Source of the DNA: a virus
DNA length: 22,083 nt
Reading direction: 5' to 3' (one strand)
Virus record (IMG/VR): IMGVR_UViG_3300037504_001132
Location: 1 to 22,083 of that record
The notes beneath the pieces were generated by a model. The model had not been told where the DNA came from. It ran no database searches and saw only the letters and a list, made by a program, of their open reading frames with translations. This document shows positions 13,850 through 15,568 of this stretch, in pieces (the stretch's first letter is position 1; each line of letters opens with the position of its first letter). The position numbers and the translations under genes were made by a program.

Positions 13850-14419
13850 CTAGAAAAGTTTTTGCTGCGCCGGTTGCCACTGCCAGCATTGCCGACCGGC
13901 GAACGACCCGCGCACCCACTGACCAGCCCCGGCCAGCGGAGCGGGAGAACCGGAAAAACCGCAAGCGAAGGCAAACACAGGCAAGCCAGCGGAAGCGGCA
14001 CGCCCGGCCACGGCCAAAGAGCCTTTGGAGTTTTTGGAAGCCAGGAAAAAGACAGCCTGAGCAGAGCCAGAAACCCCGGCCATGCTGCGCTTGATGAGCC
14101 TTGCTTGCAGCGGGACCTTGCGCACCGAGCCGCCAGCCGACCAGGACACAGCAGCACCGGCAGAAGCGGCGGCCTGAACAGCGGGCAGAGCAGAGCCAGA
14201 CCAGAACCCAGCCCCGGAAGCGGAGCCCACCGCGAACACGGAAAGCCGCCCAGCCTGACCGGCAGCCAACACGGAACGAATGACAGCAGCGTCGCCACCG
14301 GCGGCGCAACCAACACGAACCGACTGACCAGCTGAAAGAACCGACTGCACAACGGAAGCGACCAACGGGGAGAACTGAGAGGGCAGAGAACGAGAACCGC
14401 CGAAGTATGTTGAAGACAT
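13850..14419 (-). CDS. SLOG/DprA-like Rossmann-fold protein, adenine-depleted gene
   Basis: 189 residues. A start FGGSRSLP (6-13) and a second motif VRVGCAAGGDAAVIRSVL (34-51) match the phosphate-binding GxR and GxxxGxD loops of the SLOG (SMF/DprA-LOG) superfamily; later VFFLASKNSKGS (123-134) and GLPVFAF (145-151) fit the remaining strands. SLOG proteins bind nucleotides or nucleotide-derived signals, or DNA in DprA. The ATG at 14419 begins 2 bp after the previous stop. The coding strand has almost no A (8 of 240 bases at 14161-14400), which forces Ser, Ala, Gly, Val, Leu, Arg, Phe and opens all three frames on this strand. That this frame shows a coherent fold indicates it is the real one. 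Confidence 0.75.
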   Translation of the reverse strand: MSSTYFGGSRSLPSQFSPLVASVVQSVLSAGQSVRVGCAAGGDAAVIRSVLAAGQAGRLSVFAVGSASGAGFWSGSALPAVQAAASAGAAVSWSAGGSVRKVPLQARLIKRSMAGVSGSAQAVFFLASKNSKGSLAVAGRAASAGLPVFAFACGFSGSPAPLAGAGQWVRGSFAGRQCWQWQPAQQKLF

Positions 14420-14421
14420 GG

Positions 14422-14733
14422 CTACACCCGGGAGAACGAAGCGACCGACCGAAGCCCGCGAACCCGAACCGGCGGGCAAGCGAAGAACAAACCCCGGCGG
14501 ACCTGCACGGGAACACAGACCGAAAACAGCGCACCGGAGCGCCGGAGCGTGACTGACTGCCCCAGCCGACCAGCCCAGCGCTTGGCGAACGAAGCCGCCC
14601 GAGCACTGGAAGCAAAGCAGCAGACCAGAGACGCCTGCGCGCCTGAGCTGGCAAGCTGCAACGAGCGCAACGAGCCAGCGCGAAAAGCAGAGAAAGCGAG
14701 AGAGCGGGGAGAGGGGAAAGATTTGGAAGACAT
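14422..14733 (-). CDS. Small hypothetical protein, adenine-depleted partner of the SLOG gene
   Basis: 103 residues from ATG 14733, the first gene of this leftward operon, ending 2 bp before the SLOG start. FAKRWAGRLGQSVTLRRSGA followed by LFSVCVPV (about 49-76) looks like a helix-strand-strand unit; the rest is Arg/Ser/Leu-rich. The coding strand is strongly A-poor like that of the next gene. Both genes begin MSS after ACATTC/TTCC-poor leaders without a standard Shine-Dalgarno. The choice of frame is supported by the promoter-operator upstream and the tight junction with the SLOG gene, not by a known family. Confidence 0.55.
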   Translation of the reverse strand: MSSKSFPSPRSLAFSAFRAGSLRSLQLASSGAQASLVCCFASSARAASFAKRWAGRLGQSVTLRRSGALFSVCVPVQVRRGLFFACPPVRVRGLRSVASFSRV

Positions 14734-14756
14734 GACAACCTGCCTTTGTTGAAAGT

Positions 14757-14801
14757 AAGCTAACTTAGCTTATATTGTACCAAAACAGAGGGGGAAAGCA
14801 A
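14757..14801 (-). promoter_or_regulatory. Promoter and palindromic operator of the SLOG operon
   Basis: On the - strand TTGCTT (14801-14796), a 16-bp spacer and TACAAT (14779-14774). The perfect palindrome AAGCTAA-C-TTAGCTT (14757-14771) covers the predicted start point, as expected for a repressor operator. GTAAGCTAACTTAGC (14755-14769) matches GTAAGTTATATTAGC at 15316-15330 in 12 of 15 positions. Confidence 0.65.
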
Positions 14802-15355: not shown

Positions 15356-15568
15356 ATGGCAATCAAGAAAAAGATGGTTACGTATGAAGAGGCAGATGTG
15401 GAGCGGGATGAGTTGATGACGATTTCTGAGGCGTCTCAAGAGTTGGAGATGTCTGTTCCGGGGGTTGTGGCTGCGATCAATCGGGGGGCGTTGACGGAGT
15501 ATATCGACGAATCGCAACGGTTTCACGGTAAGCGTTTGGTCTCAAGGCAGGAAGTCGCCCGGTATTGA
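15356..15568 (+). CDS. Helix-turn-helix regulator (HTH_17/excisionase-like)
   Basis: 70 residues. AAAAGGAGTCACA ends right before ATG 15356. MTISEASQELEMSVPGVVAA (about 21-40) followed by INRGALTEYI and KRLVSRQEVARY forms a small winged-helix DNA-binding domain like that of the protein at 10951-11151. It is monocistronic on the + strand, divergent from the SLOG operon, with an operator-like palindrome in its own promoter. It is a good candidate for an immunity repressor or Cro-like switch; no larger CI-type repressor is visible in the window. Confidence 0.8.
   Translation: MAIKKKMVTYEEADVERDELMTISEASQELEMSVPGVVAAINRGALTEYIDESQRFHGKRLVSRQEVARY

Follow-up and report, generated by a model that had tools for sequence, protein, structure and literature searches.

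A DprA-like gene and its small neighbour in phages and plasmids are kept almost free of adenine

The adenine-poor gene pair and its products

Why should two adjacent genes of a virus be nearly devoid of one base on their coding strand, and what do such genes encode? The question is raised by the 22,083-base IMG/VR record IMGVR_UViG_3300037504_001132 (the whole stretch of DNA analysed, referred to here as the window), which is probably derived from a temperate tailed phage because integrase, terminase, portal and head genes are all present. The original prediction had pointed to positions 14161-14400, and an exact recount found 8 T among the 240 bases of the + strand, that is, 3.3% A on the coding (-) strand. 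Both open reading frames that it named, at 14422-14733 (103 amino acids) and 13850-14419 (189 amino acids), are present on the - strand, and the coding strand of the two genes contains 5-8% A, compared with about 25% in the surroundings. The maximal adenine-poor segment of the coding strand extends from 13891 to 14721 (46 T in 831 bases on the + strand, log-odds score 110; window mean 24.8%). Segmentation of the whole window detected no further base-poor segment on either strand, which rules out that adenine depletion is a general trait of the carrier genomes. All three frames of the coding strand had been described as open; this is nearly so, but the remaining frames near both genes are open almost throughout rather than completely. 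A search of 185 genomes for A-free runs of 144 bases or more turned up chiefly simple repeats and GC-rich sequence, along with copies of the module in G001 (two) and G178.

The larger gene (13850-14419, - strand) has a coding-strand A content of 7.9%. The AF2 model of its product (pLDDT 93.9, pTM 0.90) matched DprA structures best (Z 15.3 to 14.2), followed by MCP and LOG proteins (LOG 13.6), ShosA (13.6) and ThsA (10.9). Profile comparison with DprA chains in the PDB yielded E-values of 5e-6 to 2e-4 with the GSR, GxD, R and GS motifs of the Rossmann/SLOG domain aligned, and chromosomal matches with DprA-sized frames reached E-values down to 2.5e-11. The scores nevertheless stay below the curated cut-offs for DprA (Pfam DNA_processg_A, 29.6 bits, best member 25.8 and window 10.7; NCBIfam dprA, 191, score 20.4), and we therefore regard the modelled product as a SLOG-fold protein that is DprA-like rather than DprA. 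It further differs from DprA in its single domain, its C-terminal Q-x-x-L-F tail and its almost A-free gene. The proposal that this frame encodes a SLOG protein has thus held up, whereas the suggestion that its kin are nucleotide-sensing effectors has not, as the nearest relatives are DprA recombination mediators. ShosA, the DprA-like component of the ShosTA defence system, belongs to the same fold family, and 4 of 27 members match its profile weakly (E 0.0037). The phage DprA-like family PHROG 768 is matched weakly by 4 of 10 members (E 7e-4), with BFVD models alike; in contrast to PHROG 768, the present family has no tblastn match in the GenBank phage collection.

Conserved features of the DprA-like family include an Arg and a pocket Asp. 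The latter, Asp43 in the window (Asp42 in alignment numbering, where the initial Met is not counted), is encoded by a GAC codon at 14291-14293 on the - strand and is invariant in 27 sequences; A-free members almost lack acidic residues apart from it. The C-terminal QQKLF (13853-13867, - strand) resembles the sliding-clamp-binding motif QL[SD]LF, and the C-terminus fits Qxx[LIMF][FLI] in 23 of 37 homologues. We take the Q-x-x-L-F tail to be a putative sliding-clamp-binding peptide.

The smaller, upstream gene (14422-14733, - strand; 4.9% A on the coding strand) encodes a basic protein with an alpha-beta-beta-alpha-beta-beta domain, whose core (residues 9-76) is predicted by AF2 with a pLDDT of about 85 and whose tail is unreliable in the model. 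Among the PDB structures, none matched it conclusively (Z no higher than 6.0). As had been anticipated, the small gene represents a conserved family that co-occurs with the DprA-like gene and adjoins it in many carriers.

Distribution of the depletion and the level at which it acts

Carriers of the DprA-like gene are IMG/VR contigs, one MAG and plasmids, the latter from Nitrosococcus (3), Methylobacter, Methylocaldum, Methylomagnum, Allochromatium vinosum DSM 180 and Thermus. The adenine content of homologues relative to their neighbours had been proposed as a check: in 36 of the 37 homologues, the A fraction of the larger gene was less than half that of its own flanks (median ratio 0.12), with 198 flanking open reading frames serving as control and those outside the modules having a median of 22.6% A. 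The remaining base composition follows the respective element, being T-rich in AT-rich elements and C/G-rich in GC-rich elements. Depletion is milder in the Thermus members (about 4% A versus 11-14% around them) and intermediate in members similar to that of the window from A-rich phages (12-13% versus 28-31%). The only exception among the 37 is L020, whose DprA-like gene contains 19.9% A; its small-gene homologue, located on the opposite strand with 16.5% A, is still recognisable (profile score 13.8, compared with a maximum of 11.1 in 1,984 shuffles). Since L020 has a normal A content, the fold does not require A-freeness. A C- or G-poor analogue around the module was not seen, except for one weak C-poor segment in L011.

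The bias against adenine acts on the nucleic acid and persists while the genes diverge. Selection at this level had been suggested for the window, and the homologues confirm it: A is depleted at all three codon positions, four-fold degenerate codons end in A in only 1-5% of cases, and GTG (10) is nearly as frequent as ATG (11) among the start codons, some of which are approximate in this count. In A-free lineages even the Shine-Dalgarno sequence has changed from GGAGG to GGGGG (GGGGGTGTGTC; relatives GGAGGTGTGTC). It is this purging of third positions, start codons and Shine-Dalgarno sequences that indicates pressure on the nucleic acid. Depletion is restricted to the sense strand. Several leaders are A-free as well, and others (window, L013, L014, L018, L021) contain ordinary A, with 30-33% in the leader of the window itself; in L021 and L023 DNA with normal A content lies between the two depleted genes.

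Adenine has survived chiefly at sites for which the protein requires an A-containing codon, such as the pocket Asp and the tail Gln. In L103 (651 nt), L105 (537 nt) and L019 (564 nt) a single A was counted per coding sequence, located in the codon of the invariant Asp, which is their sole A-containing codon; these extreme genes thus keep one A plus the stop codon. L004 has retained A only in the invariant Asp codon and the tail Gln codon. When the coding sequences of 23 loci are pooled, the A that remains is strongly overrepresented in CAG (25% versus 7% in the flanks) and rare in GAA, AAT, TAA and AAC, which may hint at the specificity of the agent or at CpG-derived mutation.

Comparison of close pairs shows that the pressure is current, as differences involving A/G are scarce inside the module but not outside: the ratio of A/G to C/T differences is 3:35 inside and 55:80 outside for L005/L006, and 4:52 and 75:125, respectively, for L013/L014. 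The Nitrosococcus pairs tolerate more A. These differences fall mainly on third positions of the named frame (the L005/L006 small-gene comparison being read one base off frame). Several other causes were also considered and rejected. The composition of the protein is ruled out by the four-fold degenerate codons, a need to avoid nothing but stop codons or palindromes by the rarity of A in every context, and selection for RNA structure by folding that does not exceed that of shuffled sequences (z -1.01 and +0.25).

A separate observation concerns L002 (5001-5603), which was compared with the window at 13850-14419: the small genes are 92% identical, and identity drops abruptly to about 65% in the adjoining SLOG genes, which might reflect either gene exchange or fast evolution.

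Upstream region and genomic context

In the window the pair opens a leftward gene cluster behind a perfect inverted repeat, TAAGCTAACTTAGCTTA, at 14756-14772. Directly upstream of the first start codon, it consists of the arms TAAGCTAA-C-TTAGCTTA and, judged from its sequence, is probably an operator. A divergent small gene on the + strand (15356-15568), encoding an excisionase-like HTH protein (PHROG excisionase families, E 0.002 and 0.007), lies opposite the pair and possibly encodes a regulator. The hexamer TACAAT at 14774-14779 (- strand) is a possible -10 element, but a consensus promoter scan reported no - strand promoter at this position. Of the proposed promoter with a palindromic operator, the inverted repeat is thus present and perfect, and the promoter itself we only infer, because TACAAT was read by eye and is absent from the sites found by the scan.

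The depletion had been described as a feature of the operon start. This does not apply in general: it belongs to the two genes, as some loci carry only one of them or have a normal-A stretch between both, and in L013 the DprA-like gene follows the terminase and portal genes. In L070 only the small gene was seen (possibly frameshifted), followed by an AAA ATPase weakly similar to Sak4 annealing proteins, and plasmid neighbours of the module include genes for DUF932, Gp157 and ATPase proteins. The context thus suggests a role in phage and plasmid DNA metabolism, but it varies between loci.

Three further arrangements were observed. On two Nitrosococcus plasmids (L007:1407-2013 and L039:5628-6234) a HicA/HicB toxin-antitoxin pair is located directly behind the A-poor genes; in L019 (874-1866) the A-free frame continues without a stop codon into transposase-like sequence resembling IS200/IS605 TnpA; and L022 (4287-4637) contains an additional, wholly A-free open reading frame, resembling the small protein, ahead of the pair.

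Possible causes of adenine exclusion

The sense-strand specificity of the depletion, its restriction to two families and its reach into the Shine-Dalgarno sequence and leader of some lineages are more readily explained by selection acting on the transcript, or on the template strand, than by selection on codons or protein. We propose that these genes form a mobile-element module whose transcripts have been purged of adenine. The DprA-like protein would be a recombination mediator that is tethered to the sliding clamp and helps to load a recombinase onto single-stranded DNA at forks, and the small basic protein might be the partner of this mediator. Both proteins would have to be made during an adenine-dependent attack on RNA, and an A-free message would survive such an attack, candidates for which are endoribonucleases needing A, adenosine editing and adenine modification in mRNA. 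A requirement for A is shared by many toxin RNases: HigB cuts A-rich codons and YafQ cuts AAA (PMC7180214); MazF targets ACA, and ACA-less messages are still expressed (PMC9102682). The module would be the natural equivalent of the engineered ACA-less genes for MazF-expressing E. coli, where transcripts stripped of RNase target sites withstand the toxin (PMC9102682), but those genes are man-made and lack one trinucleotide, whereas the genes described here are natural and avoid a whole base.

Several observations weaken the explanation by an attack on RNA. L020 encodes both proteins with ordinary A, the leaders of the window and several other loci carry normal A, and one A and the stop codon persist even in the extreme genes. 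In addition, the enrichment of residual A in CAG is predicted by none of the named RNases, neighbouring genes of the same elements are unprotected, and the context varies (in L013 the gene is located beside late genes). We are highly confident of the DprA-like identity of the module and of nucleotide-level pressure by themselves, and advance the whole statement, which adds an adenine-dependent attack on RNA as the cause, only tentatively, though as the leading model. The same reserve applies to a more general notion, which we consider conceivable though somewhat doubtful, namely that of base-exclusion genes: a natural family whose transcripts stay nearly devoid of a single nucleotide, which would allow expression even while that nucleotide in RNA is attacked or unavailable. 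The product that must be made would here be the clamp-tethered DprA-like protein.

An A-free transcript and a T-free template strand are one and the same sequence fact, and the constraint might thus act on DNA: a template without T would keep thymine-directed damage or modification (DarT-type ADP-ribosylation of T, photoproducts) from blocking transcription. Depletion on one strand, extending to the leader and Shine-Dalgarno sequence in some lineages, is consistent with this. Pyrimidine dimers are argued against by the neighbours of the residual A, as AA and AG (TT and CT on the template) are not the most avoided and CAG is the most tolerated. We consider a DNA-level cause unlikely, albeit the least so among the alternatives.

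A-free codons need no tRNAs for Lys, Asn, Asp, Glu, Gln, His, Tyr, Ile or Thr. The genes could thus have remained translatable after anticodon nucleases destroyed the tRNAs for A-containing codons, and in the window, L013, L014, L018 and L021 the depletion indeed begins at the coding sequence. Evasion of tRNA-targeting defences by phages, by means of their own tRNAs, has precedent (PMC10264068, PMC11555353). However, starts have shifted to GTG despite the identical initiator tRNA, many lineages have lost A from the Shine-Dalgarno sequence and leader, and GTG and GCG are common though often needing U34 tRNAs, which makes this explanation rather improbable. Of much the same low probability is an A-specific mutator acting on these genes, with purifying selection sparing only indispensable A codons. 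It would account for the loss of almost all dispensable A next to the kept invariant Asp codon, and for the SLOG genes of the window and L002 being far more diverged than the adjoining small genes; against it are the normal-A DNA between the two depleted genes in L021 and L023, depletion edges that match gene edges and differences mostly at third codon positions. Moreover, a reverse transcriptase (PF00078) of a diversity-generating retroelement, which would perform A-targeted mutagenesis, is absent from 19 element records (several of them fragments, with host genomes left out).

The restriction of the depletion to two gene families would also be expected if either of the encoded proteins, or an associated one, attacked adenine in RNA or single-stranded DNA and their own A-less genes were exempt, and some SLOG relatives (LOG, PpnN) do cleave nucleotides. 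L020 has both genes with normal A, though, DprA is the nearest kin of the fold, and A-free members are almost without acidic residues except for the pocket Asp, so that we regard such self-immunity as improbable to a still higher degree. Chance composition, or coding in another frame, can practically be dismissed: the sense frames are all nearly open and an open reading frame alone thus proves nothing, but homology, the confident AF2 fold, the concentration of differences at third positions of the named frame and the depletion in 36 of 37 homologues rule it out.

The original prediction knew of no system of this kind, and in the open-access literature we likewise found no prokaryotic gene family of comparable base depletion. 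The observation of the original prediction is confirmed and proves stronger than it had described, and its interpretation is partly supported. The closest known cases are ALREX, short stretches without adenine in those parts of eukaryotic genes that encode signal sequences (PMC3635865, PMC3077370). They share with the module a functional absence of A within a coding region, but are short and tied to nuclear mRNA export in eukaryotes, in contrast to the whole phage and plasmid genes considered here. The novelty rests on whole genes being held almost free of one base, not on the encoded protein. Genes that contain just one A in 537 to 651 bases, at a site where the protein requires it, are an extreme natural example of pressure against a single base. 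They imply that two mobile-element genes of Proteobacteria and, in a milder form, of Thermus plasmids are under a strong and lasting constraint that is specific to the sense strand. The agent, once found, could bring to light that phage RNA or templates are widely attacked at adenine, or a new constraint on expression. Furthermore, the depleted homologues consist to 80-99% of ten amino acid types, yet are predicted to be well folded, which bears on the minimal alphabet of protein folds.

Gene finders skip or mis-annotate A-free genes, which may therefore be widely overlooked. This family is easily missed because public annotation omits its genes or places an antisense open reading frame there, and the low-complexity filter of BLAST probably hides it as well. 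Examples of A-free genes left uncalled, or covered by a called antisense open reading frame, are found in L010 (Methylocaldum), in L035 (Allochromatium) and at the small gene of L011.
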